DNA of 34,860 nt from Antarctobacter heliothermus (lineage in GTDB: Bacteria; Pseudomonadota; Alphaproteobacteria; Rhodobacterales; Rhodobacteraceae). Below, in pieces: positions 4,198 through 34,386 of this stretch (position 1 is the first letter of the stretch; the number at the start of each line of letters is the position of its first letter). Where the stretch lies: NCBI RefSeq assembly GCF_900188425.1, contig NZ_FZON01000051.1, forward strand, positions 1-34,860, written 5' to 3'. The translations under genes were made by a program, and so were the position numbers. Under the pieces are notes generated by a model that was not told the origin of the DNA, searched no databases, and saw only the letters and a program-made list of their open reading frames with translations.

Positions 4198-4206
4198 GAC
4201 GGGTCC

Positions 4207-5727
4207 TCAGATTCCGGCCGCGTGGCGGACAAGGGTTTCGGGGGTCAGGTCTTCGCCCGCCAGTTCGGTAGCAATCCGGCCTTCGCGCATGACGATCACC
4301 CGGTCCGACATGCCCAGGATCTCGGGGATCTCAGAGCTGACCATGATGACGGCAAGACCCTGCGCGGCCAATTCGGCCATGAATTCATGCACCGCTGCCT
4401 TGGACCCGATGTCGATGCCCTTTGTCGGCTCATCCAGAATGATCACCTTGGGCTGGGTCGCCAGCCATTTGGCGATGACCACTTTCTGCTGATTGCCGCC
4501 GGACAGGTTGCCGACATCGGTATCCAAGGACGCCGCGCGCAGGTCCAGCCGTTGGGTGTATTCCCGCGCAAGGCTGAACTCTTCCGCCAGCCGCAAAAAT
4601 CCCCGGTGCGATGTGCGCCCCAGTGAGGGCAACGTGACGTTCTGAAAGATCGGCAGCGCGGTGATCGCCCCCTGTTTGCCACGGTCCTCGGGGACATAGA
4701 CAACGCCGTGGATGATGGCGTCAGCGGGGGAACGGATGATGCGGATCATCCCGTCGATCTTGGTCACCCCCTTGGACGGTTTGGTGATCCCGAACAGGGC
4801 CTGCATGAATTCAGATCGGCCCGCACCGACAAGGCCATAAAAGCCAAGGATTTCGCCTCGGCGCAGGGTAAAGCCGATGTCGGCAAATTCTGTGGGGTGA
4901 TCGTATCCGACCACCTGCAGCACCTCATCCCCGATATGGCTTTCGCGCTGCGGAAAGACCTGAGACACGTCGCGCCCGACCATCATCTTGACCAGTTCGG
5001 ACTCGGTCACATCGTCGATCAACCCGTCGCCGACAAACTGCCCGTCCCGAAAAACGGTGTATCGGTCGGCAATGCGAAAGATCTCATCGAATTTATGGCT
5101 GATGAACAGGATCGCCTTGCCCTGTGCCTTCAGCGTCTCGACCAGCTCATAGAGTTCCTGAATTTCCTTGTGAGACAGGGCCGCTGTCGGTTCGTCCATG
5201 ATCACCACCCGGGCGTCGATGGACAGGGCGCGGGCAATGGCAACCAGATGTTTGTTGGCAATGCCCAGATCGCGCAGCTTGTGCCCTGGATCAATCTGGG
5301 CGCCGATGCTGCGCAGGATCTCTGTTGCGCGCCGCTGCATGGTGGTCCAGTCGATCAGACCGAACTTGCCGCGCGGGGCGTGGCCGATAAAGATGTTCTC
5401 GGCCACGGACAGTTCGTCGAACAGCACGGTTTCCTGGTGGATCGCCGTGATACCGACCTTGGCCGCGTCCTGCGGGGTCGCAAATCGCGTGGCCGCGCCA
5501 TCCAGCAGGATGTCACCGCCATCCGGTTGGTAGATCCCGGTCAATGTCTTGACCACGGTGGACTTGCCCGCGCCATTCTCACCGACCAGCGCTGTCACCT
5601 GACCGGGAAACAGCCGCAAGGACACGCCGTCCAGCGCCTTGACCCCCGGAAAGGTCTTGGTGATCCCGTCGAGTGCAAGAATGGGGGCCGTCGCTGCCGC
5701 GGCATCGGTCTGGGTGTGCATGAGCAT
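4207..5727 (-). CDS. rhaT: rhamnose ABC transporter, double-domain ATPase RhaT
   Basis: 506 residues with two fused nucleotide-binding domains, as is standard for CUT2 sugar importers. The first domain has an intact Walker A (GENGAGKST, about residue 50) and Walker B (VVIMDEPTAAL, about 175), but a degenerate signature (GIANKHLVAIARAL). The second domain has a degenerate Walker A (GLVGAGRSE), the signature LSGGNQQK and Walker B VIILDEPTKGID. This split of intact and degenerate motifs is normal in the family. The product powers RhaP/RhaQ from the cytoplasmic face. The ATG at 5727 gives MLMHTQTD; an ATG two codons later is equally possible, and neither has a strong ribosome-binding site. A 68-bp gap with a strong hairpin separates it from rhaS. 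Confidence 0.93.
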   Translation of the reverse strand: MLMHTQTDAAAATAPILALDGITKTFPGVKALDGVSLRLFPGQVTALVGENGAGKSTVVKTLTGIYQPDGGDILLDGAATRFATPQDAAKVGITAIHQETVLFDELSVAENIFIGHAPRGKFGLIDWTTMQRRATEILRSIGAQIDPGHKLRDLGIANKHLVAIARALSIDARVVIMDEPTAALSHKEIQELYELVETLKAQGKAILFISHKFDEIFRIADRYTVFRDGQFVGDGLIDDVTESELVKMMVGRDVSQVFPQRESHIGDEVLQVVGYDHPTEFADIGFTLRRGEILGFYGLVGAGRSEFMQALFGITKPSKGVTKIDGMIRIIRSPADAIIHGVVYVPEDRGKQGAITALPIFQNVTLPSLGRTSHRGFLRLAEEFSLAREYTQRLDLRAASLDTDVGNLSGGNQQKVVIAKWLATQPKVIILDEPTKGIDIGSKAAVHEFMAELAAQGLAVIMVSSEIPEILGMSDRVIVMREGRIATELAGEDLTPETLVRHAAGI

Positions 5728-5748
5728 GTCGGCAATCTGTTTTAGGGA

Positions 5749-5772
5749 CCCCGGCGCGTCACAGCGCCGAGG
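5749..5772 (-). repeat. intercistronic stem-loop between rhaS and rhaT
   Basis: In the minus-strand RNA, CCTCGGCGC and GCGCCGGGG form a 9-bp stem (one G-U pair) around a 6-nt loop (plus-strand arms 5749-5757 and 5764-5772). No T-run follows, so it is not a classic terminator. Hairpins directly after a binding-protein gene commonly stabilise that part of the mRNA so that the binding protein outnumbers the membrane subunits. That role is inferred here. Confidence 0.65.
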
Positions 5773-5795
5773 CCGAAGGACATCGGATCAGGCGA

Positions 5796-6797
5796 TCAGA
5801 AGATCGATTTGAAATCGTCGATGTTTGAGCTGTCGTAGACAAAGGGATCCGCCATCGCGCCTTCGTTGTTTTCGTCCAGAGTCAGGGTGCCCATGCGACC
5901 CATGGGGATTTCTGCGCCCGGTTCGGCCGTGGCCTCACCCGTGGCAAGCGCGTGGGCGATCATCGTCGCCGAATACCCCAGGTCAATCGGGTTCCAGATC
6001 GCAAAGGACTTGGACGCGCCGCTGTCGATGGCACCCGCCATTTCCGACGGCAGTCCAAGGCCGGTCACGTTCACCTCACCCACCTTGCCAGCGTCCACAA
6101 CCGCCTGCGCGGCGGCCACGATGCCGACGCTGGTCGGTGCGATGATTGCGTCGAGGTCGGGGAATTTCTGCATCAGCCCCTGCGCCTCACGGTAGGATTT
6201 GTCGGCCAGATCGTCTCCGTAAACAGTGCCGACCACCTCGATGCCGGGATAGTTGCCCATGACCTTTTCCATCTCGGCGATCCAGACGTTCTGGTTGGTC
6301 GAGGTGGTGGTGGCCGACAGCAACGCCACCTTGCCGCCCTCGGGCAGCTGATCCGCGGCCAGCTTGATGATCATGTTGCCGATCAGCGGGTTGGACGACG
6401 GGTTGAGATGCATCTGGCGGCCTTCAGGTGCCACACCGGAATCCCACGAAATCACGGTGATGCCGCGCTGCATGGCCTTTTTCAGAACCGGGACAAGCGC
6501 ATCCGTGTCATTGGCAGACACCGCGATCGCATCGACCCGCTGGGCGATCAGCGCATTGATGACTTCGATCTGCTCCTCGGCGGTTGTTCCGGTCGGGCCG
6601 GTGTAGATGATCTCGACATTGCCCAGATCGGCGGCGGCCTCTTCGGCACCTTTGGCGGCAGCTTCGAAAAAGCCGATGCCAAGCGCCTTGACCACCAGCG
6701 CAATGCGCATGTTGTCCTGCGCCATGGCGCTGGTGCCCATGAGGCTGGCGACAAGACTGGCACCGGCCAGCAGTTTGGTAAAGTTGCGACGGATCAT
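5796..6797 (-). CDS. rhaS: rhamnose ABC transporter periplasmic binding protein
   Basis: 333 residues. A signal peptide is clear: basic MIRRNFTK, a hydrophobic core, and a likely cleavage after TSAMA before QDN, so the protein is periplasmic. The rest is a ribose-binding-protein-like (Peripla_BP_4) fold with segments such as RIALVVKALGIGFFEAAAKGAEEA, INALIAQRVDAIAVSANDTDALVPVLKKA and ITVISWDSGV. It should capture L-rhamnose and deliver it to RhaP/RhaQ/RhaT. A good ribosome-binding site (GGGAGGAAACC) precedes the ATG at 6797. It lies 38 bp after the rhaR stop on the same strand, with no obvious separate promoter in the gap. Sugar specificity is taken from the locus. Confidence 0.93.
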   Translation of the reverse strand: MIRRNFTKLLAGASLVASLMGTSAMAQDNMRIALVVKALGIGFFEAAAKGAEEAAADLGNVEIIYTGPTGTTAEEQIEVINALIAQRVDAIAVSANDTDALVPVLKKAMQRGITVISWDSGVAPEGRQMHLNPSSNPLIGNMIIKLAADQLPEGGKVALLSATTTSTNQNVWIAEMEKVMGNYPGIEVVGTVYGDDLADKSYREAQGLMQKFPDLDAIIAPTSVGIVAAAQAVVDAGKVGEVNVTGLGLPSEMAGAIDSGASKSFAIWNPIDLGYSATMIAHALATGEATAEPGAEIPMGRMGTLTLDENNEGAMADPFVYDSSNIDDFKSIF

Positions 6798-6835
6798 GGT
6801 TTCCTCCCTGAGATCACGTTTTCTGTTGAGGTCGG

Positions 6836-7642
6836 CTACGAGGCCGCCCCGCCGACTTGTTGGACCGCGCCCGATTGGGCGACGATCAGCGTCACATCCG
6901 CAGCCTCAAGCATGGCGGCGACCTTATCCGGGATTCCCTCATCGGTGATCACCGTGTCGATGCGGTCCAGCGGGCAAAGCACCAGGCTCGACCGGTTTTC
7001 GAATTTCGAACTGTCGACCAGAACCACCAGCTCATCCGCCTGACCGATCAGCTTTTGTTCGGCCTGGATCAGCAGCGGGTCGGCCTCCATCAATCCGATC
7101 GGGCCCAGACCCTGCGCCCCCATGAACATGCGGCGCGCGTAAAAATTGCGGGTCACGTCATTGTCGAAGGGCGACAGGATGATGTTCTGTTCGCGGTAGA
7201 TCACCCCACCCGACAGCATGACCGTATTCTTGGAATGCTTCAGCAGGTGTTCGGCAATCGGGAACGAATTGGTAAAGACCTGACAGCGGCGCGAGGCCAG
7301 TGGATGCACCATCTGAAAGGTGGTTGTGCCGCCGTTGATGATGATGGAATCGCCGTCCGAACACAGATCGACAGCCGCGCGGGCAATCGCCTGCTTTTCA
7401 CGGCTGTGCATGGTTTCGCTGACCGAAAACGGCCGCCCGGCCAGCCCCACGAACTGCGGCGGGCTGATCGCCTCTGCCCCGCCCCGCACCCGGCGCAGTT
7501 TTTTCTGCGCGTCGAGCGCGGCAATGTCGCGGCGGATCGTGGCCTCGGACGCGTCCGTCAGATTGCACAAATCAATCACGGTCACGACCGGCCTGTCCTG
7601 AACGGCAGACAGAATGATCCTGTGGCGCTCTTTTTCGTGCAT
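6836..7642 (-). CDS. rhaR: DeoR-family repressor of the rhamnose operon
   Basis: 268 residues. The N-terminal winged helix-turn-helix carries the DeoR signature (VTVIDLCNLTDASEATIRRDIAALDAQKKLRRVRGGA, about residues 17-53). The C-terminal DeoRC sugar-phosphate-binding domain shows the family's DGDSIIINGGTTTFQMV and GGVIYREQNIILSP stretches. The ATG at 7642 is chosen because a strong ribosome-binding site (AAGGGAGGACGTG) sits directly before it; a longer in-frame start at 7684 would put the ribosome-binding site inside the gene. It is the first gene of the import operon and probably represses both that operon and the divergent rhaD-rhaA, from the inverted repeat at 7697-7747. The inducer is likely a rhamnose pathway intermediate, not shown by the sequence. 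Confidence 0.92.
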   Translation of the reverse strand: MHEKERHRIILSAVQDRPVVTVIDLCNLTDASEATIRRDIAALDAQKKLRRVRGGAEAISPPQFVGLAGRPFSVSETMHSREKQAIARAAVDLCSDGDSIIINGGTTTFQMVHPLASRRCQVFTNSFPIAEHLLKHSKNTVMLSGGVIYREQNIILSPFDNDVTRNFYARRMFMGAQGLGPIGLMEADPLLIQAEQKLIGQADELVVLVDSSKFENRSSLVLCPLDRIDTVITDEGIPDKVAAMLEAADVTLIVAQSGAVQQVGGAAS

Positions 7643-7662
7643 CACGTCCTCCCTTGTCGCTG

Positions 7663-7691
7663 ACACTGGCCAGATTCGCCGCACCTGTCAA
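7663..7691 (-). promoter_or_regulatory. candidate promoter of the rhaRSTPQUK operon
   Basis: On the minus strand a consensus -35 hexamer TTGACA (7691-7686) is followed after 17 bases by CAGTGT (7668-7663), a weak -10. It lies just outside the large inverted repeat, mirroring the plus-strand TTGACA at 7753. Start-site mapping is not possible from sequence alone. Confidence 0.4.
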
Positions 7692-7696
7692 TCATT

Positions 7697-7747
7697 ATTA
7701 ATCACAATCAGTCATTCTGCGCCGCAGCATGATTGATTGTGATTGTT
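7697..7747. promoter_or_regulatory. candidate RhaR operator, divergent inverted repeat
   Basis: A perfect 11-bp inverted repeat, AATCACAATCA (7700-7710) and TGATTGTGATT (7734-7744), extends to 19-bp arms with 16 matches (7697-7715 and 7729-7747), centred at 7722 between the two divergent transcription units. Extra GATTG units lie within and beside the right arm. Multiple spaced repeats of this kind are typical of DeoR-family operators. Candidate -35 hexamers flank it on both sides, so one bound repressor could shut both promoters. Confidence 0.75.
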
Positions 7748-7752
7748 TTAGA

Positions 7753-7781
7753 TTGACATTGCGTCACACCCAACGCAGTTT
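7753..7781 (+). promoter_or_regulatory. candidate promoter of rhaD-rhaA
   Basis: TTGACA at 7753-7758 immediately follows the right arm of the RhaR inverted repeat. The hexamer 17 bases later (CAGTTT, 7776-7781) is a poor -10. The placement suits repression by a factor bound at 7697-7747. Confidence 0.35.
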
Positions 7782-7829
7782 CGCCGCAACATTCTATCGC
7801 GGGCGCAGGGCGCCAAATGGGAGGACGCC

Positions 7830-9932
7830 ATGTTGAAAACTACCGAAAATCAGCTTCTTGAGAACCGTTGGGATCAGACCAAAGCGCAAGACATGTCCGA
7901 GTCGGACCTGCTGTTGTATCGCTCCAACATCCTGGGATCGGACAAGCGGGTGACCAACTACGGTGGCGGCAACACCTCTGCCAAGGTGATGGAAACCGAC
8001 CCGCTGACCGGCGAACAGGTCGAGGTGTTGTGGGTCAAGGGATCAGGCGGCGACATTGGCTCTATCAAGATGGATGGTTTTGCCACGCTCTACATGGACA
8101 AGCTGACCGCGCTGAAGGGCCTGTATCGCGGCGTCGCGTTCGAGGACGAAATGGTCGGCTACCTGCCGCATTGCACCTTTCGCCTGAACCCGCGCGCGGC
8201 CTCTATCGACACGCCTTTGCACGCCTATGTGCCGCGCAAACATGTGGACCACGTCCATGCAGACGCCATCATTGCCATCGCGGCATCGAAAAACTCCCGT
8301 GACCTGACGCAAGAGATCTTTGGCGACAAGATCGGCTGGTTGCCGTGGAAAAAGCCGGGGTATGAACTGGGCCTTTGGCTGGAAAACTTCTGCCTTGAGA
8401 ACCCCGACGCTGACGGTGTCGTGTTGGAAAGCCACGGGCTGTTCACATGGGGCGACACCGCCCGCGCCTGCTATGACATGACCATCGAGGTGATCAACAC
8501 GGCCACCCAATGGCTGGCGGACAAAACGGCCAATGTCCCGGCCTTTGGTGGCGCGAAACACATCAGCCTTGCCGCACGGGATCGACGTGCCGTCGCCGCC
8601 CGCCTGATGCCTGCCATCCGTGGCTTTGTCTCCGGCAACCAGCACATGGTCGGCCATTTCAACGACAGCGACGCGGTGCTGGAATTTGTCAATGCGCACG
8701 ACATGGCGCCGCTGGCCGCGCTGGGAACCTCCTGTCCCGACCATTTCCTGCGGACCAAGATCCGACCGCTGGTTGTCGACTATGACCCCGCCACGGGCAA
8801 CATTGATGAGGTTCTGACCGGGTTGCCCACGCAGATTGCGGCCTACCGCGACGACTACGCCGCCTACTACAACCGCTGCAAACACGACAACTCTCCTGCA
8901 CTGCGCGACCCCAACGCCGTGGTCTACCTTGTCCCCGGCGTCGGCATGATCACCTTTGCCAAGGACAAGGCGACAGCCCGGATTTCGGGTGAGTTCTACG
9001 TCAATGCGATCAACGTCATGCGCGGGGCCTCTTCGGTCAGCGAATACACCGGGCTGCCGGAACAGGAGGCGTTCGACATCGAATACTGGTTGCTCGAAGA
9101 GGCCAAGCTTCAACGAATGCCAAAACCGAAATCGCTGGCGGGCCGGGTGGCGCTGATCACCGGCGGCGCGGGCGGCATCGGCGCGGCCACGGCGGAACGC
9201 TATCTGGCAGAGGGTGCCTGCGTGATGCTGGCCGACATTGCGCAGGACAGCCTCAAAGCCGCCCTTGACGACATGACTCGGCGATACGGCAAGGACGTAG
9301 TACGCACCGCGGTGATGGACGTCACGGATGAGGTCGCCGTTGCCGCAGCCTATGCCGAAATGGCCGTCGAATTTGGTGGCGTGGACATCCTTGTGTCCAA
9401 TGCCGGTATCGCCTCGTCGGCGCCGGTCGAGGAAACCACCTTGGCGCTGTGGAACAAGAACATGGAGATTCTGAGCACGGGGTATTTCCTGGTCTCGCGT
9501 GAAGCGTTCAGGTTGATGCGGGTGCAGGACATGGGCGGGTCCATCGTCTTTGTCGCCTCCAAGAACGGCCTTGCCGCCAGCCCCAACGCATCGGCCTATT
9601 GCACCGCAAAGGCGTCTGAAATCCATCTTGCTCGGTGTCTTGCCCTTGAGGGGGCAGAGGCGGGCATTCGGGTGAACGTGGTGAACCCGGACGCGGTTCT
9701 GCGCGGGTCCAAGATCTGGGAAGGGGAGTGGCTGGAACAGCGCGCCGGAACCTATGGCACCGACAAGGACGGGCTGGAAGAAATGTACCGCAAGCGGTCG
9801 TTGCTGAAACGCTCTGTTCTGCCCGAGGACATTGCCGAAGCGGCCTATTTCTTTGCCGCCGACACGTCGGCCAAGTCGACCGGAAATATCCTGAATGTGG
9901 ATGCCGGCAATGTGCAATCGTTTACGCGCTGA
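7830..9932 (+). CDS. rhaD: bifunctional rhamnulose-1-phosphate aldolase / short-chain alcohol dehydrogenase
   Basis: 700 residues with two fused enzymes. The N-terminal half (about 30-280) is a class II aldolase domain with the zinc-binding His-x-His of VDHVHADAIIAIAA and a third His in LESHGLFTWGD. It should split L-rhamnulose-1-phosphate to dihydroxyacetone phosphate and L-lactaldehyde. The C-terminal part (about 435-695) is a short-chain dehydrogenase with the NAD-binding VALITGGAGGIGAAT, the NAG motif (LVSNAGIA) and the catalytic Tyr and Lys of SAYCTAK. It should oxidise or reduce the lactaldehyde. The ribosome-binding site GGGAGGACGCC precedes the ATG at 7830. This fusion is the common alphaproteobacterial form, and couples aldol cleavage to removal of the reactive aldehyde. 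The isomerase gene follows after 25 bp. Confidence 0.94.
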   Translation: MLKTTENQLLENRWDQTKAQDMSESDLLLYRSNILGSDKRVTNYGGGNTSAKVMETDPLTGEQVEVLWVKGSGGDIGSIKMDGFATLYMDKLTALKGLYRGVAFEDEMVGYLPHCTFRLNPRAASIDTPLHAYVPRKHVDHVHADAIIAIAASKNSRDLTQEIFGDKIGWLPWKKPGYELGLWLENFCLENPDADGVVLESHGLFTWGDTARACYDMTIEVINTATQWLADKTANVPAFGGAKHISLAARDRRAVAARLMPAIRGFVSGNQHMVGHFNDSDAVLEFVNAHDMAPLAALGTSCPDHFLRTKIRPLVVDYDPATGNIDEVLTGLPTQIAAYRDDYAAYYNRCKHDNSPALRDPNAVVYLVPGVGMITFAKDKATARISGEFYVNAINVMRGASSVSEYTGLPEQEAFDIEYWLLEEAKLQRMPKPKSLAGRVALITGGAGGIGAATAERYLAEGACVMLADIAQDSLKAALDDMTRRYGKDVVRTAVMDVTDEVAVAAAYAEMAVEFGGVDILVSNAGIASSAPVEETTLALWNKNMEILSTGYFLVSREAFRLMRVQDMGGSIVFVASKNGLAASPNASAYCTAKASEIHLARCLALEGAEAGIRVNVVNPDAVLRGSKIWEGEWLEQRAGTYGTDKDGLEEMYRKRSLLKRSVLPEDIAEAAYFFAADTSAKSTGNILNVDAGNVQSFTR

Positions 9933-9957
9933 CAGACTGCCTGTGGGAGGAAACAGC

Positions 9958-11199
9958 ATGAGCCAATATGACAGCGCCCGCGCGCAATTCGCTGACTGGG
10001 GCGTCGACACCGAAACCGCGATAGATGCCCTGAAATCCATCCCGATTTCCATGCACTGCTGGCAGGGCGATGACGTGGTGGGATTTGAGGCATCAACCGG
10101 CACCTCTGGGGGGGGCATTCAGGCAACGGGCAACCATCCGGGCCGCGCCCGTACCCCGGACGAATTGCGCGCCGATCTGGACTTTGCCTATGGCATGATT
10201 CCCGGCACTCACCGTCTGAACCTGCACGCCATCTATCTGGACACGGATGAAACACCGGGGCGCGATGAGATCGAGTTTCGGCATTTCACCCCTTGGGTGG
10301 ACTGGGCGCGCGACGCGGGCATCGCGTTGGATTTCAACCCGACGTTTTTTGCGCACGCCAAGGCGGACGACAACCTGACCCTGGCGCACCCGGACAAGGG
10401 CATCCGCGACTTCTGGATCGAACACGGGCGTCGCTGCCGGGACATCGCGGCACAGATGGGCGCGGCGCAGGGCAGTCCCTGCATCAACAACATCTGGGTG
10501 CCCGACGGGTTCAAGGACACGCCGGTGGATCGCATGGCGGCGCGCACCCGGCTGGAGGCGTCACTAAACGACATGTTTGCCGCCCCTCAGGACAAGGTGC
10601 AGATGCGCGATGCGGTCGAAAGTAAGCTGTTCGGCATCGGGGTCGAGGCCTGCACCGTCGGCAGCCATGAATTCTATCTGGGTTATGCGATCCGCAAGGG
10701 CACGCTGTTGTGTCTCGACATGGGGCATTTCCACCCGACCGAGAACATCGCGGACAAGCTGTCCGCCTGCGCCTTGTCGCTGGATGAGATCCTGCTGCAT
10801 GTCTCGCGGCCCATGCGTTGGGACAGTGATCACGTGATCCTGCTGAACGACGACATTCAGGCCATGGCCAATGAGTTGGTCAGCGGGGATCTGCTGGGTC
10901 GCACCCACATCGGGCTGGACTTTTTCGACGCCACCATCAGCCGGACGGCGGCCTGGGTGATCGGCACGCGCAACATGCAAAAGTCGTTGCTGCGGGCCAT
11001 GTTGCTGCCGCTGTACCGTCTCAGGCAGGCGGAAACGTCGCTGGACCACACAACCCGGTTTGTCGTGACTGAAGAGTTCAAGGACATGCCCTTTGGCGCC
11101 ATCTGGGAAGAGTTCTGTACGCGGATGGGCACGCCGGTCGGTCAGGGTCTCATCCGCGAACTGGACGGCTATCAGGCCAAGGTTGCCGGGCGCGGCTAA
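9958..11199 (+). CDS. rhaA: L-rhamnose isomerase
   Basis: 413 residues, close to the 419 of E. coli RhaA. It isomerises L-rhamnose to L-rhamnulose in the cytoplasm with divalent metal. Family blocks line up in order: PISMHCWQGDDVVGFE near the start, SGGGIQATGNHPG, RLNLHAIYLD, LDFNPTFFAHAKADD, INNIWVPDGFKD, the metal-site region AVESKLFGIGVEACTVGSHEFYLGYA, CLDMGHFHPTENI, LLHVSRPMRWDSDHV, and HIGLDFFDATISRTAAWVIGTRNMQKSLLRA. The ATG at 9958 has a strong ribosome-binding site (TGGGAGGAAACAGC); a longer in-frame start at 9895 would overlap rhaD and is rejected. It forms a two-gene operon with rhaD. The orthologue is called rhaI in rhizobia. Confidence 0.95.
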   Translation: MSQYDSARAQFADWGVDTETAIDALKSIPISMHCWQGDDVVGFEASTGTSGGGIQATGNHPGRARTPDELRADLDFAYGMIPGTHRLNLHAIYLDTDETPGRDEIEFRHFTPWVDWARDAGIALDFNPTFFAHAKADDNLTLAHPDKGIRDFWIEHGRRCRDIAAQMGAAQGSPCINNIWVPDGFKDTPVDRMAARTRLEASLNDMFAAPQDKVQMRDAVESKLFGIGVEACTVGSHEFYLGYAIRKGTLLCLDMGHFHPTENIADKLSACALSLDEILLHVSRPMRWDSDHVILLNDDIQAMANELVSGDLLGRTHIGLDFFDATISRTAAWVIGTRNMQKSLLRAMLLPLYRLRQAETSLDHTTRFVVTEEFKDMPFGAIWEEFCTRMGTPVGQGLIRELDGYQAKVAGRG

Positions 11200-26281: not shown

Positions 26282-28063
26282 TCACCAATCGTTCGCGACG
26301 AGATGACCATCCCCGATGTCCTGCAGAGGCAGGCGGTTTGGTGCGTTGCCGATCCGATGAATAGGCGAAGGGATGTCGGACACTGGCCGCGCATGCGCGC
26401 GCGCTCTGCGCAAAGGGTCCGGGATCGGCACCGCGTCCAGCAGCCGTTTGGTATAGTTGTGCCGGGGATTGCCAAAGACCTGATCGCGCGTGCCCATCTC
26501 GACAATCTGGCCGAGATACATGACCGCCAGCCGGTCAACCACGTTTTCGACAACAGCCATGTCGTGACTGATAAAGAGATAGGAGACTCCCGTTTCTCTC
26601 TGCAACTCTTCCAGCAACTCCAACACCTGCGCCTGCACCGACACGTCCAGCGCAGAAACGCTTTCATCGCAGATGATCAGCTTTGGCTTCAAGGCGAGTG
26701 CGCGCGCAACGCAGATGCGCTGTCGTTGCCCGCCGGAAAACTCATGCGGATAACGTGTCATCTGTTCGAGCGTCAGGCCAACACGCTCAAAGAGTTCAGC
26801 GGCGCGGGTATGGCGCTCTTTGGGCGTGCCGATCCCGTGGATCAGCAACGGTTCGGCCACGGCCTCACCCACGGTCATGCGCGGGTCTAGCGCCGCCATG
26901 GGATCTTGGAACACCATCTGGATGTGGCGGCAGATGTCCCGCCTGCCCTGCGCCGTCAATCCTGCCAGCGCCTGACCGTCAACCTCGACATGCCCCTGAT
27001 GCGGTACCAGACCGGCAAGCGATTTGGCGATGGTGGACTTACCACAGCCGGACTCGCCGACCAGACCAAAGGTTTCGCCCGGGCGAATGTCAAAGCTGAC
27101 GCCCTCGACCGCGTGCACACGGTGCGTGGGACGGCCAAGGAAACTGGCGCCGATGTCGAAATGCACCTGAGCATCCACCAGGCGGGCCACCGGGACGGGC
27201 GCCGCCGGCGGCAGCGGTTTGGCGCGTTCGGCGCCAGTGCCAAGGCGTGGCACCGCAGCCAGCAGGGCGCGGGTGTAATCCTGTGTAGGCGCTGCGAAAA
27301 GCTGCTCTACCGGGGCGCTTTCGACCATGCGGCCGTGCCGCATCACCACGACGCGGTCAGCGGTTTCCGCGACGACGCCCATGTCGTGGGTGATCAGGAT
27401 AATGGCCGTGCCGGTCTCTTTTTGCAGGTCTCGAAGGAGTTCCAGAACCTCACGCTGGACCGTTACATCCAGCGCCGTCGTCGGCTCGTCCGCAATCAGT
27501 AGGACAGGCCGAAGAACCAGCGCCATCGCAATCATCACACGCTGACGCATACCGCCCGACAACTCATGCGGATATTGTTTCATCCGCCGTTCGGGTTCAG
27601 GAATGCGCACCTTGCGCAACGCCTCGATGGCGGCGGTGCGGGCCGCGCTGGCCGAGACTGGTTCATGGGCGCGGATCACTTCTGTCATCTGGCTGCCGAT
27701 GGTATGAACCGGGTTCAGAGACGTCATCGGCTCTTGGAAAATCATCGCCACGCGGGCACCGCGCCATGCGCGCATCCGGGCCTCTGGCAGGCTGGGAAGG
27801 TCTGTGCCCTCCAGCAGCGCCTGACCCGAGGTGACAGAGACGTTGTTGGGCAATAGCCCCATCAACGCCAGCGAGGTGATAGACTTGCCCGATCCACTCT
27901 CACCCGCGATGGCCAACGTTTCGCCCGCGGCGAGGTCAAAGCTCAGACCCGCCACCAAGGGACGGACGACACCCCGGTCCTTTACGGATACGGTGAGATC
28001 CCTCACGGAAAGCAGGGCGGCTTCCGCCCCCGAAGGGGCGGTCGCAATTTGTGTCATGGTCAT
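26282..28063 (-). CDS. peptide-type ABC transporter ATPase, two domains fused (DppD-DppF)
   Basis: 593 residues with two complete nucleotide-binding domains. Domain one has Walker A GESGSGKS, signature LSGGMRQR and Walker [13 protein letters not shown]. Domain two has Walker A GESGCGKS, signature FSGGQRQR and Walker [13 protein letters not shown], where Ser replaces Pro and Thr of the usual EPT; the ESVSALD form is common in DppF/OppF proteins. Each domain ends with the oligopeptide-transporter C-terminal region ([22 protein letters not shown]). The ATG at 28063 overlaps the formamidase stop (ATGA); an ATG two codons later is possible. It should power the DppB/DppC permeases encoded upstream in the same operon. 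It is the last gene of the operon. Confidence 0.92.
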
Positions 28064-29019
28064 TCCAACACCAGTCTGGGGAAGTAGAAGGAAACGACCC
28101 AATTCGGCATGTCCACGATTTCCGAGATGCGCAGATCACCGCAGGTAGAGATCAGCATATAGGCATCCACGTCCGACATGCCGTAGCGCGCGGTCAGCAA
28201 ATCGATCATGCCGGACACCGCGTCGCGTGCACCGCTCATCAGGTCGGGGCCAACACCCGTCGTGACCTCATAGCCCTTTGCATCCAGATGCCGTGTAACC
28301 GGCCCCGGCGTTGTAAAGCGCGGCATCTTGAGGTTCGCGCCCTTTACCAGGTCCAGCGTCAGGGTCACGTCCATCGGGCTTTCGATGGCCGTGCCGCAGA
28401 CCTCGCCGTCGCCCTGCGCCGCATGGGTGTCCCCCACGGAGAACAGCGCCCCCGCCACCTCGACCGGAAGATAGAGTTCCGTACCCGCCGAGAGATCGCG
28501 GATATCAAGGTTGCCGCCCGTCCGGCGCGGCGGGACGATGGAATGCAGTCCCGGCTCTGCCTGCGCGACGCCGATCGTGCCGGTAAACGGCTTTAGCGGC
28601 ACGCGGCCCATGTCGCCCCAAAGCGCGGGTTCCATGGTTTCGGCGTCATATTTCCAGATCGTCAACGCCGGGTCTTCGAATTGGTCCGCAAGCAGGCCAA
28701 AGCCCGGAATGTTCGCGGTCCAGCCCCAGGCGCTGCCCTCCTGCTTGCGGGGGGCAAAACCGTCAAGTGTGATCTTCAGCGAATCTCCGGGCTCTGCGCC
28801 GTCGATGTAGATCGGCCCCGAGACCGGGTTGATCTTGCCAAAGTCGAGCGCCTTGACGTCGTCGACGGTGCTCGACGGGCCAAGCTGGCCCGCCGAAGAA
28901 TCCATGCAGTTGAAACAGATCGTCGTCCCTGGCGCGACCGTCTCGACCGGGGCAATGGAATTGTCCCAGCCGAAATGGTGCTGCGCGCCGTGAATCGTGT
29001 AATCACAGGCTTTGCACAT
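28060..29019 (-). CDS. acetamidase/formamidase family amidohydrolase (FmdA-like)
   Basis: 319 residues, no signal peptide, cytoplasmic. The FmdA_AmdA family pattern is visible: an early HFGWDNSIAPVETVAPGTTICFNCMDSSAGQL, then NPVSGPIYIDGAEPGDSLKITLDGF, PLKPFTGTIGVAQAEPG, the central GGNLDIRDLSAGTELYLPVEVAGALFSVGDTHAAQGDGEVCGTAIESPMDVTLTL, and a late MIDLLTARYGMSDVDAYMLISTCGDLRISEIVD. The family hydrolyses formamide, acetamide or related short amides to ammonia and the acid. It lies between the binding protein and the ATPase of one importer operon, with gaps of four bases and an overlap, so the importer probably carries its substrate. The precise amide is unknown. Confidence 0.92.
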   Translation of the reverse strand: MCKACDYTIHGAQHHFGWDNSIAPVETVAPGTTICFNCMDSSAGQLGPSSTVDDVKALDFGKINPVSGPIYIDGAEPGDSLKITLDGFAPRKQEGSAWGWTANIPGFGLLADQFEDPALTIWKYDAETMEPALWGDMGRVPLKPFTGTIGVAQAEPGLHSIVPPRRTGGNLDIRDLSAGTELYLPVEVAGALFSVGDTHAAQGDGEVCGTAIESPMDVTLTLDLVKGANLKMPRFTTPGPVTRHLDAKGYEVTTGVGPDLMSGARDAVSGMIDLLTARYGMSDVDAYMLISTCGDLRISEIVDMPNWVVSFYFPRLVLE

Positions 29020-29023
29020 GCGC

Positions 29024-30643
29024 TTACTCGGTCACGTAGACGTAGTCGTAGTTGACCGGGATAGACACCGGATCGACGTAGAGCGAGTCATCGCCGCCCA
29101 TGCGCTCGGACTTCATCGTGTAGCGCTGTTCGTTGAAGACGGGGACCCAGGGGGCCTGCTCCATCACCTTCATGTAGGTGTCGGACCACATCTGCAGCCG
29201 CTCCGGCGCTGCCGGGTCGGTCATACTGTCGGCTTCGACCGCCATGGCGTCGATGCTTTCATCGCAGAACTTGGACCAGTTCCAACCGCCGTCTCCAGCA
29301 CCAGCACAGCCCAGGATCGGACCGTAAAAGTTGGACGGATCCGGGAAGTCCGCGATCCACGCCATGCCACCGGACCAGATCATCGGCGCGGCACCCGCGC
29401 CGCCGGCCTCGATCACGTTGGCCTGCGCGAGAGAGCGGATTTCCACGTTCACGCCGATCGCCTTGAGATCCTGCTGGATCGCCTGCGCGATACGCGGATT
29501 CGGGTCGGTGTTCATGACGTAGAGCTCGGTCGTGAACCCGTCCGCCAATCCTGCTTCGGCCAGTTTGGCCTTGGCGGCCTCGACGTCGAAGGCAAAGCCC
29601 TCAAAGCCCTCGGTGTAGCCCGGCATCGACGGCGGCAGCGGCTGCGTGGCAGGCACGGCGCGGCCGTTGATGATCTGGGTGATCCGCTCTTTGTTGATGG
29701 CCATGTTGATGGCCTCACGCACCGGCAGCTTGTCCAGCGGTTCGATGCCGACGTTCAGCGTGATGTAGCCGGTGTGCAGCTGGCCGCCTTCGACGACGCG
29801 CTCTGCCTGGGCGGGGTCGCCCATGACTTCCTGGAACTTGGCGGGCGGGATGCCATCGCCGGGCACGTCCACCTCACCCTGTTGCAGGCGCAGCAGCGCC
29901 ACGATGGGTTCCTGTCCGACTTCGAAGGTCACAGCATCCAGGTAGGGAATACCTTCGCGCCAGAAGTCTTCGTTCTTGGCGAACACGAGGCGCTGACCGA
30001 TGGTCCATTCATCCAGCTTGAAGGCACCTGTGCCAACGGGATGTTTACCAAAGTCGGTGCCATGCTCATCCACGGCCTCTTTTGGCACGATGGAAGCAAA
30101 GTTCAGCGCCATGACGTGCAGGAATGTGGCGTCGGGGCGCGACAGGGTGATTTTCACGGTCATCGGGTCGACGACCTCGACCCCGGAAAGCGTATCCGCC
30201 TCACCTGCAGAAATCGCGTCGAAGCCCGCGATGGAGGCAAAGAAACCGGCGCCGGGCGACTGCGTTGCCGGGGTGGTCACGCGGTCGAGCGAGTATTTCA
30301 CGTCCTCGGCGGTCATCTCGCGGCCATTGTGGAATTTCACGCCCTCGCGCAGGGTAAAGGTGAAGACGATGCCGTCCTCGGAGATATCGTAGCTTTCGGC
30401 CAGACCGGGGCGCAGTTCAGTGGTGCCGGGGACATAGTCCATCAGACCGTCGAACAGCGATTTGATCATTGACCAGTTCTGCCAATCGTAACCGATGGCG
30501 GGGTCCAGCGTTGCGACGTCGTCCTTGTAGGTGATGGTGATCTCCCCACCGGACTTGGCGTTCGGATCGGGCGTATAGTCCTGTGCAAAGCCGGGCAGCG
30601 CCGTGGCGGCCAGCAGCGTGGTAGAAAGGAGCAGATTTTTCAT
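29024..30643 (-). CDS. peptide-type ABC transporter, periplasmic binding protein (SBP_bac_5)
   Basis: 539 residues. A signal peptide (MKNLLLSTTLLAATALPGFA, cleavage before QDYTPDP) sends it to the periplasm; no lipobox Cys is seen. Family-5 binding protein segments are DVATLDPAIGYDWQNWSMIKSLFDGLMDY, LRPGLAESYDISEDGIVFTFTLREGVKFHNGREMTAEDVKYSLDRV, GTGAFKLDEWTIGQRLVFAKNEDFWREGIPYLDAVTFE and LPVREAINMAINKERI. Members carry peptides, nickel, opines or other amidated compounds, so the ligand is not readable. The 70-bp gap before it holds a short GC hairpin (30680-30692) and a GGGAAGAAAAAC ribosome-binding site. Its position after both permeases is unusual for the family. Confidence 0.93.
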   Translation of the reverse strand: MKNLLLSTTLLAATALPGFAQDYTPDPNAKSGGEITITYKDDVATLDPAIGYDWQNWSMIKSLFDGLMDYVPGTTELRPGLAESYDISEDGIVFTFTLREGVKFHNGREMTAEDVKYSLDRVTTPATQSPGAGFFASIAGFDAISAGEADTLSGVEVVDPMTVKITLSRPDATFLHVMALNFASIVPKEAVDEHGTDFGKHPVGTGAFKLDEWTIGQRLVFAKNEDFWREGIPYLDAVTFEVGQEPIVALLRLQQGEVDVPGDGIPPAKFQEVMGDPAQAERVVEGGQLHTGYITLNVGIEPLDKLPVREAINMAINKERITQIINGRAVPATQPLPPSMPGYTEGFEGFAFDVEAAKAKLAEAGLADGFTTELYVMNTDPNPRIAQAIQQDLKAIGVNVEIRSLAQANVIEAGGAGAAPMIWSGGMAWIADFPDPSNFYGPILGCAGAGDGGWNWSKFCDESIDAMAVEADSMTDPAAPERLQMWSDTYMKVMEQAPWVPVFNEQRYTMKSERMGGDDSLYVDPVSIPVNYDYVYVTE

Positions 30644-30713
30644 GTTTTTCTTCCCTGTTGGTGGTTGATAGATGGCAAAGCGGCAGGGCCGCGACGCCGG
30701 CGGTAATTCCTGT

Positions 30714-31634
30714 TCAGCGCAGCTTGATGCGCGGATCGATCATCGGGGTGACGAAGTCAGCCAGCAGATTGCCCAGCACGATGGCGCTGGCGGACACCAT
30801 CGTGACGCCCATGATGATGGGGATGTCGACGCGCTGGATCGCTTGCCACGCTAGCTGTCCGATGCCGGGCCAGCCAAAGACGCTTTCGACGACGACGATG
30901 CCACCCATGAAGATGCCGATGTCGATCCCGATCATGGCGATGATGGGTAGAATGGCGTTGGGCAACGCGTGATGGATCAGGACGCGCGCACGGGTCAGTC
31001 CCTTGGCGCGGGCAGTGCGGATGTAGTCCTGTCGCAGCACCTCTACCATGCTCGACCGCATCATCCGGCTATACCAACCCGATCCCATGATCCCCAGCGT
31101 CACGGCAGGCAGCACAAGATGCGAGGCCGTGCCGTATCCCCCGATCGGGAACCAGCCCAGCTGCACCGCAAAGACGTAGAGCAGCAGCAGGCCCACCACG
31201 AACTGCGGGGCAGAGACGGCAACGAAAGAGGTGACCATCAGCCCCTGATCCAACGGGCGACCCCGAAAGACCGCGGCCACAATGCCCAGCGTCAGGCCGA
31301 TCATCAGCTCGCAGCCGATGCCCCCGGCCATCAGCAGCAAGGACGCAGGCAGACGTGCGGCAATCAGCGTGGAGACCTCGGTCTTTTGCAGATAGCTGCG
31401 GCCCATGTCGCCCTGCACCAGCCCGCTGAGGTAGCGCCAATACTGCACCAGCATCGGCTGATCGAGGCCAAGCTGCTGGCGAATGTTCTCCACCGTCTGT
31501 GCGGTGGCAGAACGACCCGCGATCTGACGCACAGGGTCGGCAGGCAGAACATACAAAAGAACGAAGGTGATAAAGCTCACGCCCAGAAGGATCAGCGCCG
31601 ATTGCACCAGACGTCGAAAGAGATAGCCGGCCAT
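30714..31634 (-). CDS. peptide-type ABC transporter permease, DppB-like
   Basis: 306 residues with six membrane segments. The N-terminus (YLFRRLVQSALILLGVSFITFVLLYVLPADPVRQIAG) and LGLDQPMLVQYWRYLSGLVQGDMGRSYLQKTEV are the standard DppB opening. The ATPase-contact loop follows as MMRSSMVEVLRQDYIRTARAKGLTRARVLIHHALPNAILP (the EAA motif), and the end GGIVVVESVFGWPGIGQLAWQAIQRVDIPIIMG is also typical. The ATG at 31634 shares a base with the stop of the preceding permease (TGATG). It pairs with the DppC-like protein in the inner membrane. Here DppB follows DppC, the reverse of the common dppBC order. Confidence 0.93.
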   Translation of the reverse strand: MAGYLFRRLVQSALILLGVSFITFVLLYVLPADPVRQIAGRSATAQTVENIRQQLGLDQPMLVQYWRYLSGLVQGDMGRSYLQKTEVSTLIAARLPASLLLMAGGIGCELMIGLTLGIVAAVFRGRPLDQGLMVTSFVAVSAPQFVVGLLLLYVFAVQLGWFPIGGYGTASHLVLPAVTLGIMGSGWYSRMMRSSMVEVLRQDYIRTARAKGLTRARVLIHHALPNAILPIIAMIGIDIGIFMGGIVVVESVFGWPGIGQLAWQAIQRVDIPIIMGVTMVSASAIVLGNLLADFVTPMIDPRIKLR

Positions 31635-32563
31635 CAGTCATTTCCCCTTTGGGTCGGGTCGAGAACGTCGCGCAGCGCGTCTCCAACAAGGTTGAAGGCC
31701 AGTGCCAGCAGCAGGATCGCGGCGCCGGGAATGAAGACCAGCCAGGGCGCGGCCTGAAAATAGGTCTGGTTTTCGAAGATGATGTTGCCCCAGCTAGGCG
31801 TCGGCGGTTGTACCCCAACACCGAGGAACGACAGCGTCGCCTCCAGCAGCACAGTGACCGAAATCCCAAGGGTGCCCCAGACGATCAGTGTCGGCACGAG
31901 ATGCGGCAGGATATGTTTGAACAGGATGCGCGCCCCAGAAGCGCCCAGCGTCTTTTCCGCGGCGATGAACTCGCGTTCAGCAAGCGACGTGGTTTCCGTA
32001 TAGACCACGCGCGCTGTCTGCACCCAGTTTACCAAAGCGATGACCATGGCCACGATCCACAAGGACGGCTGAAAGATCGCTGCAAGGCAAATCGCCAGCA
32101 GCAGCGCCGGAAAGGCCATCATCAGGTCGGTGAAGCGCATGAGAACCGCGCCGATCCAGCCACGCAAGTACCCGGCAAGCACGCCGACAATTGTGCCAAT
32201 CAGCAGCGCAACACCATTGGCCACCACCCCGATGAGCAATGACGTCTGGGCACCATAGAGCATGCGACTGAAGAGATCGCGGCCCAATAGATCCGTGCCC
32301 ATCAGGAACCCTCCTCCCGGCGGCATCGGCTCACCGAACAGGGTAAGCCCCTCGAAAAGCTGTTCATCCGGCGCATATGGCGCGATCAATGGGGCAAAGA
32401 CCGCGCCTCCCACGACCAGAGCGATGATCGCAAAGCCGAAGAGGGCAAGTTTGCGGCGCAGAAGACGTCGTAGTGCCCCTGCGGGCGCGACAGGCGCGTT
32501 TGGGCGTTGTGTCAATTCAGCCAAGATCGCCTCCTCCGGTTGTTCGGGTGTCACGCGGGCCAT
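31634..32563 (-). CDS. peptide-type ABC transporter permease, DppC-like
   Basis: 309 residues from the ATG at 32563. The DppC pattern is present: RRLLRRKLALFGFAIIALVVGGAVFAPLIAPYAPDEQ, FLMGTDLLGRDLFSRMLYGAQTSLLIGVVANGVALLIGTIVGVLAGYLRGWIGAVLMRFTDLMMAFPALLLAI, the EAA loop EREFIAAEKTLGASGARILFKHILPHLVPT, and LSFLGVGVQPPTPSWGNII. The ATG start overlaps the end of amiR by 47 bases. A TTG at 32524, with GGAGGAGGC directly before it, would give 296 residues and almost no overlap, and is a serious alternative. It forms the channel with the DppB-like protein. Confidence 0.88.
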   Translation of the reverse strand: MARVTPEQPEEAILAELTQRPNAPVAPAGALRRLLRRKLALFGFAIIALVVGGAVFAPLIAPYAPDEQLFEGLTLFGEPMPPGGGFLMGTDLLGRDLFSRMLYGAQTSLLIGVVANGVALLIGTIVGVLAGYLRGWIGAVLMRFTDLMMAFPALLLAICLAAIFQPSLWIVAMVIALVNWVQTARVVYTETTSLAEREFIAAEKTLGASGARILFKHILPHLVPTLIVWGTLGISVTVLLEATLSFLGVGVQPPTPSWGNIIFENQTYFQAAPWLVFIPGAAILLLALAFNLVGDALRDVLDPTQRGND

Positions 32564-33131
32564 TGACCGAAGAGACGATGCGCGTTGCGGCCTCCTCGAA
32601 GCTGACGCGCCACGCCATGGCCATGCCGCGCAGTTGTTCGTAGGCCTCATCCTCGGTCTTGCCCCGCGCGGCGAGCAGCGCCACCGCCTGAACAACAGTT
32701 TGTCTTTGCCCGAGGCGACGGCGCAGGCTGTCGATTTCACCCGCCAGGCCGATCCGTGCGTCAAAGGTCGCCCGCGCGATCAGCAGCGCGGAATAGACAC
32801 CGTTGTCTCCTACGGGTTTCAGGATCTGCGCATCAGCGCCAAAATTCATCAGCCACTCGATCCGGCCAGGCGCCTCCGATCCGATGAGCGCTATGGTTGG
32901 CAGCGGCGCCTCACCCAGCTCCCAAGGGAACTGATCGTCGTGGGCGCTGTCGACGTCAATGAACAAGTAGTCGGCAGCCCGGGTCGCGGCGGGAAGCTCC
33001 GGCCAGTGACATTCGGCTTGCAGCCCCACGGCCTGCAACTGGCGCGTCAGTGCCGTCACCGTGACGTGGGGACGATGCAGGATCACCGCGCGCGCACCGC
33101 CAAGATCAGGAATGCTGAGGCGGCGTTTCAT
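32517..33131 (-). CDS. amiR: AmiR-like ANTAR-domain antiterminator
   Basis: 204 residues. The N-terminal part is a receiver-like fold (AVILHRPHVTVTALTRQLQ, DYLFIDVDSAHDD, PTIALIGSEAPGRIEWLMNFGADAQILKPV), followed by a coiled-coil linker (AGEIDSLRRRLGQRQ). The C-terminal ANTAR three-helix domain is QTVVQAVALLAARGKTEDEAYEQLRGMAMAWRVSFEEAATRIV. In Pseudomonas, AmiR is held inactive by AmiC and, once released, binds leader RNA and prevents termination upstream of the amidase genes. The gene overlaps amiC (ATGA) and precedes the transporter genes. Its target is probably the operon's own leader upstream of amiC. Confidence 0.87.
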   Translation of the reverse strand: MKRRLSIPDLGGARAVILHRPHVTVTALTRQLQAVGLQAECHWPELPAATRAADYLFIDVDSAHDDQFPWELGEAPLPTIALIGSEAPGRIEWLMNFGADAQILKPVGDNGVYSALLIARATFDARIGLAGEIDSLRRRLGQRQTVVQAVALLAARGKTEDEAYEQLRGMAMAWRVSFEEAATRIVSSVNGPRDTRTTGGGDLG

Positions 33132-34231
33132 GTGACCGCCTTTATCATCGGCCGGACCTGAATTGTGTGGGTCTGCGTCAGGTACGGGTCTCCCTCGATG
33201 GGCGCATAGGTCCGCAGCGGTACAAAAACGCCGTCTCGCACCTGAGCGATGGCCACCGGCAGGGTGAGGTGATGGGTTCGGGCGCTGATCCCCACGGCTT
33301 CGGAACCCGGCAAGGCCAGCAATTCCGGCAGGGACAAGGACTCTGCGTCAGGGGTGCCCGCCAGCAGTTGTGCCAGCATCATGACCGACGCATGCGCTGC
33401 CGCCTCAAAGGACGACCCGAAATCCTCTCTGCCACCGTTGCCGGGCAGCGCCGGTGACAGACCCCGAAACCACGGCCCGGCAGAGATAACCCCCTCGGCC
33501 GAGGCACCGATCACGGGCAATTCCGCCTCTGTCATGTTACACGACAATACCGGGCAACGGCGTCCGGCAAATGCGGGATCACGCGCCCGCAGCGCGGCCA
33601 TGGCGTCCAGAAAGGCGTATTGCGACGGCCCGATCAACTGGTTCAGCACGAAGTCAGGCTTCAACGCTTCGATCTCGTCCACCAATCGCGCGATATCTGT
33701 GGAACCGATGGGCACATAGCGTTCTCCCAGCACGTCGCCACCCGTACGCGCGCTGAGTTCCCGCGCAATGCGGTTCATTTCCCAACCCCAAATGTAATTC
33801 GATCCCGTGAGATAGACCTGCTTGCCATACGCGGCAAAGCAATGGTCCAACAGCGGGAGCAGGTGCTGGTTGGGGCAAGCATGGGCATACACCACGCGGT
33901 CTGACGCCTCGAACCCCTCGTAGGGCGTAGGATACCACAGAACCCCGCCCATGCGCTCAAGACTGGGAATGACTTCTTTGCGGCTCCACGACGTGGTGCA
34001 CCCGATCACATGGCGCGCGGCGCTGGATTTCAGGATCTCTTCGCAAAAGGGCGCATAGGCATCGATGTCTCCGCCCGGATCCCGCTCCACCGCGCTGAAG
34101 GCCAGATCCAGCGTCGGGTCGGCATTCACCTGAGCGATGGCTTTCAGCGCCCCTGCACGGCTGGCGCGGCCCATGAGTTTGTAGGGACCGGTGGTCGAGA
34201 AGAGTAGTCCAAGATCGATGGTGCGGGTCAC
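33128..34231 (-). CDS. amiC: AmiC-like amide sensor / periplasmic-binding-protein-fold negative regulator
   Basis: 367 residues from the GTG at 34231, close to the 385 of Pseudomonas AmiC. There is no signal peptide, so it should be cytoplasmic, unlike transporter binding proteins of the same fold. The start TIDLGLLFSTTGPYKLMGRASRAGALKAIAQVNAD, then CTTSWSRKEVIPSLERMGGVLWYPTPYEGFEASDRVVYAHACPNQHLLPLLDH and KQVYLTGSNYIWGWEMNRIAREL are typical of AmiC and the related UrtA family. The GTG is chosen for the CTGGAG ribosome-binding site; another GTG lies 13 codons upstream. A urea or short-chain amide ligand is likely but not proved. UrtA-type transport is excluded by the missing signal peptide and the amiR neighbour. 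Confidence 0.87.
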   Translation of the reverse strand: MTRTIDLGLLFSTTGPYKLMGRASRAGALKAIAQVNADPTLDLAFSAVERDPGGDIDAYAPFCEEILKSSAARHVIGCTTSWSRKEVIPSLERMGGVLWYPTPYEGFEASDRVVYAHACPNQHLLPLLDHCFAAYGKQVYLTGSNYIWGWEMNRIARELSARTGGDVLGERYVPIGSTDIARLVDEIEALKPDFVLNQLIGPSQYAFLDAMAALRARDPAFAGRRCPVLSCNMTEAELPVIGASAEGVISAGPWFRGLSPALPGNGGREDFGSSFEAAAHASVMMLAQLLAGTPDAESLSLPELLALPGSEAVGISARTHHLTLPVAIAQVRDGVFVPLRTYAPIEGDPYLTQTHTIQVRPMIKAVT

Positions 34232-34248
34232 GCGATACTCCAGAAACG

Positions 34249-34308
34249 AAAAGCGCCCCGCACCCAGCACCCGTCACGAGGACGAGCAAAGGGATACGAG
34301 GCGCTTTT
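34249..34308 (-). promoter_or_regulatory. amiC leader hairpin, candidate attenuator for AmiR
   Basis: In the minus-strand RNA, AAAAGCGCC (34308-34300, read 5'-3') can pair with GGCGCTTTT (34257-34249) across 42 nt. The second arm is followed by CGTTTCT and then the amiC ribosome-binding site. A GC stem running into TTTTCGTTT resembles an intrinsic terminator that an ANTAR protein could prevent. I could not find a clean pair of the six-base loops that ANTAR proteins bind. A perfect -35 (TTGACA, 34355-34350) lies upstream but its -10 is weak (CACCTT, 34332-34327). Confidence 0.5.
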
Positions 34309-34386
34309 GCCGACTATGTTGTAGCCAAGGTGACCCAAGCAACCCGACTTGTCAAAACATTCACCGCTTCGCCCATCGGCCCCAAA

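Follow-up and report, generated by a model that had tools for sequence, protein, structure and literature searches.

The ami operon of Pseudomonas aeruginosa encodes the nitrilase-type AmiE and a small channel, with no ATP-binding cassette (ABC) importer. Its AmiC sensor, AmiR antiterminator and leader-based attenuation logic (PMC3369931) have apparent counterparts in the locus described here, a seven-gene cassette within a 34,860-nt stretch of the Antarctobacter heliothermus genome (contig NZ_FZON01000051.1, positions 1 to 34,860; hereafter the window). The cassette also differs from the ami operon in the presumed AmiC pocket motif and in loop base G4 of the leader. A second relative was described in May 2026 from Klebsiella sp. 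KOS9: a single plasmid-borne acetamidase operon of ~8 kb in which amiC and amiR are joined by an acetamidase gene and the four genes of a cluster-5 ABC importer (PMC13209695). As set out in the passages of that paper drawn on here, operons with >99% similarity occur on Enterobacteriaceae plasmids, lysate of acetamide-grown KOS9, in which the operon with this gene set is the only acetamidase operon, released ammonia from acetamide, and the authors propose acetamide uptake. The growth media named for the assay differ (LB in 3.3, M9 plus casamino acids in 2.5). In the literature searched, the KOS9 paper was the only one in which this gene set was seen.

The KOS9 operon looks like the same cassette as that in the window. 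A 7.8-kb cassette on a Klebsiella pneumoniae plasmid (locus L158) carries the seven gene types of KOS9 and was therefore taken as the same operon; it shares gene order with the window. Identity to the window is 55–68% across its transporter and hydrolase genes and 36% in amiC, and its amiR matches that of the window over only 49 residues (29%). Gene content agrees between the KOS9 operon and the window, and the match in order was read from four Enterobacterales plasmids, as the KOS9 passages give content only (PMC13209695). Differences are the gammaproteobacterial host and the enzyme name, amiE, and the same passages report neither an RNA leader nor an alphaproteobacterial distribution. The cassette is a further member of a kind of system already in print. 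An earlier note on this DNA had contrasted AmiC/AmiR together with an ABC importer with the Pseudomonas model. The arrangement is not new: a homologue of the binding protein occurs on 867 plasmid records, 729 of them from Klebsiella, and in addition to the 2026 operon paper two further arrangements pair AmiC/AmiR with an importer. In Skermanella (L160), the sensor pair and a hydrolase of the same family accompany a Urt-type (branched-chain/urea-type) importer in place of the importer type seen here. A. heliothermus itself has a second module on contig C71 (L077, 8516-15919) with the order amiC-amiR-CN_hydrolase-UrtA-like binding protein-permeases-ATPases. Like the cassette, it joins the sensor pair to an ABC importer and a hydrolase; unlike the cassette, it has a Urt-type importer, a CN_hydrolase and the AmiC motif DYIFPRE.

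Comparative sequence evidence leads us to regard the cassette as probably a self-contained, amide-sensing and attenuation-controlled uptake-and-hydrolysis operon that serves nitrogen supply, with a small amide, either acetamide-like or amine-bearing, as substrate. Gene families were assigned by Pfam search and coordinates were refined from the sequence (Table 1). All seven genes lie on the minus strand in the order amiC-amiR-permC-permB-SBP-fmdA-ATPase (permC and permB, permeases C and B; SBP, substrate-binding protein). Four of the six junctions overlap, one is a 4-base gap and 70 bases precede the binding-protein gene; the probable TTG start of permease C lies inside the 3′ end of amiR, after GGAGGAGG. 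The co-directed, tightly packed arrangement proposed in the earlier note is thus borne out by families and junctions, except that position 34355, given there as the upper end, is where a TTGACA box ahead of amiC starts and not where a gene does. An AmiC-type Peripla_BP_5 protein stands beside a protein with AmiR_N and ANTAR domains, all three models scoring over their Pfam cut-offs, and SBP_bac_5, OppB/OppC-type permeases and an OppD/F-type ATPase make up a family-5 peptide-type importer. The hydrolase far exceeds the gathering cut-off of FmdA_AmdA (PF03069; 208.5 versus 27 bits) and falls far below that of the formamidase equivalog NF045496 (135.4 versus 500 bits). Among solved structures, the four closest to it bear the names acetamidase or acetamidase/formamidase, and the fifth is a formamidase by name. 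‘Formamidase’, as the enzyme had been called, is therefore a family label only.

We followed the cassette through two sets of loci. Set 1 comprised 44 loci chosen by AmiC or plasmid similarity (five plasmid matches, 38 stretches from other genomes and one from the same genome). Set 2 comprised named genomes scanned with a binding-protein alignment, from which the best 80 of at least 557 relatives were taken, mostly Rhodobacterales by title. The sets overlap by at least ten contigs, as judged by length, and are not independent counts. The full order was found in 38/44 loci of set 1 and in 71/80 of set 2. This recurrence places the order beyond chance. All four Enterobacterales plasmids inspected (K. 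pneumoniae L158, Escherichia coli L165, Citrobacter L166 and Raoultella L167) carry all seven gene types, again in this order. In at least 33 of 394 genomes of the family, including that of the window itself, AmiC was matched over nearly its full length at 53% identity or more; one further genome, G216, showed such identity in pieces only.

The six exceptions in set 1 are of several kinds. L064 (9397-14213) and L065 (1342-9844) retain the leader and amiC-amiR-fmdA, but the importer genes that come next form a peptide-type ABC set not orthologous to that of the cassette, so that the transporter has been exchanged naturally. In L067 the cassette is truncated at a contig end, L074 and L076 combine AmiC/AmiR with another, distant fmdA, and L077 is the second AmiC/AmiR module of A. 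heliothermus. Eight of the nine remaining loci of set 2 are on short contigs or begin at a contig end. L108 (8175-14339) has permC-permB-SBP-fmdA-ATPase and, despite 8.1 kb of upstream sequence, no match to amiC or amiR even at E < 1. Pairwise distances of five genes correlate over 37 loci (r = 0.93 for amiC-amiR and 0.75–0.88 for the others); the cassette is therefore largely inherited as a unit. The sensor pair is about twice as diverged as binding protein, permease B and hydrolase, with mean distances of 0.43–0.44 versus 0.20–0.25.

The neighborhood of the 80 named loci was surveyed for open reading frames (ORFs) of at least 120 residues, up to six per side. ABC ATPases were the commonest outside family, near 21/80 loci, and the next family was near six, so no specific partner was seen. 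On the Rhizobium plasmids L035, L038 and L159, the genes thiM-thiE-thiD come after the cassette and share its strand, which had prompted the idea of thiamine salvage; with no family besides ABC ATPases near more than six of the 80 loci, that function was dropped. Transposase genes of insertion-sequence or Tn3 type lie within several kb of the cassette in L158, L165, L166 and L167. In L158, fec genes flank one side and a chloramphenicol resistance gene the other.

Upstream of amiC, 34 aligned leaders show a TTGAC box (31/34), an invariant GGCA, five variable bases, an invariant GCC, a variable stem and a GGGG-T tract. Conservation suggests a −35 element for TTGACA; on the minus strand, a consensus search gave no sigma-70-like promoter. 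GGC and GCC can close a hexaloop hairpin, termed P2. As its GCC also begins the 5′ arm of an intrinsic terminator, hairpin and terminator are, by sequence and predicted folding, mutually exclusive. Covariation supports the outer helix of the terminator among the 34 leaders, all from Rhodobacteraceae: 94.5% of cells are paired and four of seven pairs changed on both sides, although the outermost position is unpaired in 8/34. Four double-sided pairs were reached in 8/500 shuffles and the paired percentage or covariation score in 0/500, and sliding the partner by one base lowered pairing to about half. In the window, the terminator fold has a predicted minimum free energy of −44.9 kcal/mol, compared to −31.6 kcal/mol for the best fold with P2 enforced, and a nascent transcript stopping short of the terminator 3′ arm is predicted to fold P2. 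A consensus terminator scan, limited to short loops, reported a shorter hairpin at 34272-34251. An Rfam scan of the whole window gave nothing at gathering score.

The leader is a regular companion of the cassette. GGCA-N5-GCC occurs in 43/45 amiC upstream regions, and the two exceptions, L074 and L077, do not contain this cassette. For the named set, a first strict pattern recognized 55/71 leaders and a looser one 67/71, with GGCA-N5-GCC found by eye in the last four. Across 1.67 Mb of strand-bases (44 loci plus the window), the full motif gave 31 matches, of which 30 were amiC leaders. We also searched the full pattern in 30 whole genomes, with a reversed pattern as control. Matches were obtained in 27 genomes, and by coordinates 23 of the 30 had a match at the amiC leader (missed in G242, G182, G279, G202, G068, G055 and G291); the control gave 13 matches in ten genomes. 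The pattern also lies elsewhere in most genomes. We make no claim of a wider regulon.

The accepted ANTAR target is a pair of hexaloop hairpins bearing A1 and G4, of which the second overlaps a terminator (PMC3369931, PMC7496416). In the structure of EutV with RNA, Tyr164 is the stacking partner of G4, and Arg142, Lys149 and Glu160 make contacts with this base (PMC8934654). P2 shares with the EutV/NasR/AmiR-type targets the C:G-closed hexaloop, A1 and the location at the terminator 5′ base (PMC3369931, PMC7496416, PMC8934654), and in these respects the leader architecture fits ANTAR antitermination. A1 was present in 34/34 leaders of an unforced alignment; the search patterns used elsewhere required it. 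The cassette departs from those targets in having mostly C at position 4 (53/67 named loops), a purine at position 5 (67/67) and a poorly conserved upstream hairpin, P1. Base counts were also made in 41 of 45 leaders, leaving out L038 (a near-duplicate of L035), L074, L076 and L077; here, position 5 is a purine in 39/41. P1 was detected in 48/71 named loci, with 30 different stems, where shuffled sequences would give 11.6 and windows farther upstream 18.6; in the other set it was detected in 26/41 leaders versus 6.8 and 12.4 expected. Its loops span 4–8 bases and are not regular hexaloops. No description of a conserved leader with such a changed loop was found in the literature searched, which had limited reach into subscription journals, and this seems to be the unreported part of the cassette.

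AmiR of the window matches the solved AmiR chain 1qo0_D and, weakly, EutV (6wsh). The lysine that contacts G4 in EutV is present in P. aeruginosa AmiR and Rv1626 and is replaced by Val in 39/41 cassette AmiRs. The Arg142 equivalent is retained in 41/41 and an aromatic residue at 164 in 36/41. Loss of the lysine fits a changed loop code, but the simple correlation breaks down in Klebsiella. Klebsiella AmiR has Leu at this position with a leader, read by eye as GGT-AATGAA-GCC, that offers G4 (no match with the strict GGC pattern), and the paralogous AmiR of A. heliothermus has Ile, so the coupling between loop and AmiR is only suggestive. A third ANTAR protein of this genome (C104:71717-71875; L001) gives its strongest ANTAR match, with 78.1 bits.

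From these data, we infer the contact between AmiR and leader, the direction of the switch, the ligand, the import and the reaction as follows. In the absence of ligand, AmiC would hold AmiR inactive and transcription would end at the terminator ahead of amiC, so that expression would stay at a basal level. Binding of an amide by AmiC in the cytoplasm would release AmiR, which would then bind the hairpin or hairpins overlapping the terminator 5′ arm, allowing RNA polymerase to continue through the seven genes, among them amiC and amiR themselves. The amide would be brought in by the peptide-type importer with its binding protein, two permeases and fused ATPase, and split in the cytoplasm by the FmdA_AmdA hydrolase into ammonia and a carboxylic acid entering central metabolism. 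Of the functions assigned in the earlier note, amide hydrolysis gains support from the published acetamidase activity of what is apparently the same operon in Klebsiella (PMC13209695). Ligand-sensed control by antitermination is credible from the AmiC/AmiR pair and, by comparison, from the terminator-type attenuator right before amiC; the loop, without a canonical G4, fits less well.

Several observations weigh against this proposal. Canonical G4 occurs in 0/67 named P2 loops and in 2/41 leaders of the other set. A scan for tandem A1/G4 hexaloops in the 600 bases upstream of amiC yielded one weak match in 45 regions (L038) and none in the window, compared to 3% of 200 shuffles. P2 shows no covariation because its paired bases are invariant, and P1 is doubtful in the window and was found in 1/11 of its close kin versus 47/60 of the other loci. 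Most of the 30 genomes, including that of A. heliothermus (C85:142408), contain the leader pattern at additional places. On the substrate side, acetamide would be an unusual ligand for a binding protein of the peptide type, and the presumed pocket motif of the cassette AmiC is unlike that of the acetamide-binding AmiC. The KOS9 passages report no knock-out and no growth test of KOS9, and KOS9 ‘amiE’ is presumably the FmdA_AmdA gene, judging from gene content, the 8-kb length and the host list (PMC13209695).

These points bear on three other explanations. A plausible one, though in our judgment less than an even bet, keeps the regulation described above and takes the substrate to be an amine-bearing amide, such as an amino-acid amide, hence the peptide-type importer. 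Acetamide is supported by the Klebsiella activity; importer type, binding-protein kinship and an altered AmiC motif suggest the amine-bearing amide. The binding protein matches Protein Data Bank entry 8UPI with 898 bits over residues 24-538, under the title ‘Structure of a periplasmic peptide binding protein from Mesorhizobium sp. AP09 bound to aminoserine’. The kinship is drawn from sequence; an AlphaFold model was poor (mean predicted local distance difference test score 64.3, predicted template modeling score 0.46, root-mean-square deviation 17.0 to 8UPI). Asp432 of the binding protein is invariant (38/38) and aligns with the Asp of DppA WTGDNGDP and OppA WCADYNEP, which we take to anchor the α-amine of the ligand. 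The nearest solved chains of AmiC are those of P. aeruginosa AmiC, 1pea and 1qo0. SxxRK and YPTPYEGFE are kept in the window, where NYIWGWE replaces DYIYPRE. The replaced motif, N145-Y146-(I/V)-W148-G149-W150-E151, is found in 41/41 aligned cassette AmiCs, and Klebsiella AmiC keeps it as NYVWGWE at 36% identity. P. aeruginosa AmiC and the A. heliothermus paralog have DYI(Y/F)PRE at this position, and the ligand of the cassette AmiC may therefore differ. Against an amine-bearing substrate stands the hydrolysis of acetamide by KOS9 lysate (PMC13209695). Moreover, the 8UPI ligand may be carry-over from expression, ‘aminoserine’ is left undefined by the title and no paper on the structure was found in the literature searched. 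The Asp432 equivalent is common to other peptide-binding proteins, GsiB excepted, and need not fix the ligand.

Alternatively, the conserved hairpin could be an ordinary terminator or a processing site, with AmiC/AmiR acting elsewhere. The loop without G4, the absence of P1 from most of the clade of the window and the lack of a mapped transcription start would agree with this. We nevertheless consider it unlikely: in 31/34 leaders the hairpin is preceded by the TTGAC box, which places the hairpin inside the leader of the operon itself, upstream genes vary by locus, and the GGCA before the terminator arm is invariant in 34/34 although a terminator has no need of it. A chance placement of a peptide or metal-ligand importer beside an amidase and sensor pair is disfavored and appears highly improbable. 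NCBIfam matches of the transporter do belong to peptide and nickel families, and the ATPase passes 6/25 models among the matches listed (dipeptide, nickel and staphylopine), with permeases and binding protein below every listed cut-off. Gene order and co-inheritance extend across Rhodobacterales, Hyphomicrobiales and Enterobacterales, however, and L160 combines this sensor pair and hydrolase family with a Urt-type importer.

Table 1 Features of the cassette and its leader in the window.
Feature	Position	Strand	Basis and remarks
TTGACA, −35-like box	34350..34355	-	TTGAC in 31/34 aligned leaders, TTGTC in 2, TTGAT in 1
Possible P1 hairpin GGCTA-CAACA-TAGTC, weak	34312..34326	-	Absent in the six closest kin of the window among 41 leaders
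P2 hexaloop hairpin GGC-AAAAGC-GCC, putative AmiR target	34300..34311	-	Leader alignment and folding
Intrinsic terminator and T tract, ahead of amiC	34249..34304	-	5′ arm shares GCC with P2; covariation
amiC, cytoplasmic-type amide sensor	34231-33128	-	Peripla_BP_5 (PF13433); probable GTG start; no signal peptide by eye
amiR, AmiR_N and ANTAR antiterminator	33131-32517	-	Pfam
Permease C, OppC/DppC-type	32524-31634	-	OppC_N/BPD_transp_1; probable TTG start
Permease B, OppB/DppB-type	31634-30714	-	BPD_transp_1_N/BPD_transp_1
Binding protein, family-5 (peptide-type)	30643-29024	-	SBP_bac_5; signal peptide-like N terminus by eye; close homolog of 8UPI
Hydrolase, FmdA_AmdA (acetamidase/formamidase family)	29019-28060	-	Pfam; no signal peptide by eye
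ATPase, fused OppD/OppF-type	28063-26282	-	Two ABC_tran stretches (two ABC domains)

Pfam matches of 19 other ORFs of the window point to unrelated functions, including sugar ABC and rhamnose genes, aldehyde dehydrogenases, a tripartite tricarboxylate transporter and an aminotransferase; four had no Pfam match. The region 532-11199, with a sugar ABC importer, a DeoR-type regulator, an aldolase/dehydrogenase fusion and RhaA, looks like a rhamnose utilization cluster.

In place of a family-level guess, the cassette can now be described as a defined and widely distributed module with a predicted RNA switch. An importer homolog with a solved ligand-bound structure is linked to a sensor and an enzyme, the leader suggests that the accepted ANTAR rule for the loop is not followed here, and the same metabolic cassette travels on Enterobacterales plasmids. 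A bolder combination, which we regard as rather doubtful, is that the operon imports and hydrolyzes an amine-bearing amide, for example an amino-acid amide, outside the range of any AmiC/AmiR operon known so far, and that this AmiR subfamily reads a rewritten code, A-N-N-C-R-N, the loss of G4 being matched by the loss of the ANTAR lysine. If true, this would reveal a new nitrogen-scavenging route common to Rhodobacterales, Rhizobium and clinical Klebsiella plasmids, and would provide a natural case of co-evolved ANTAR specificity.

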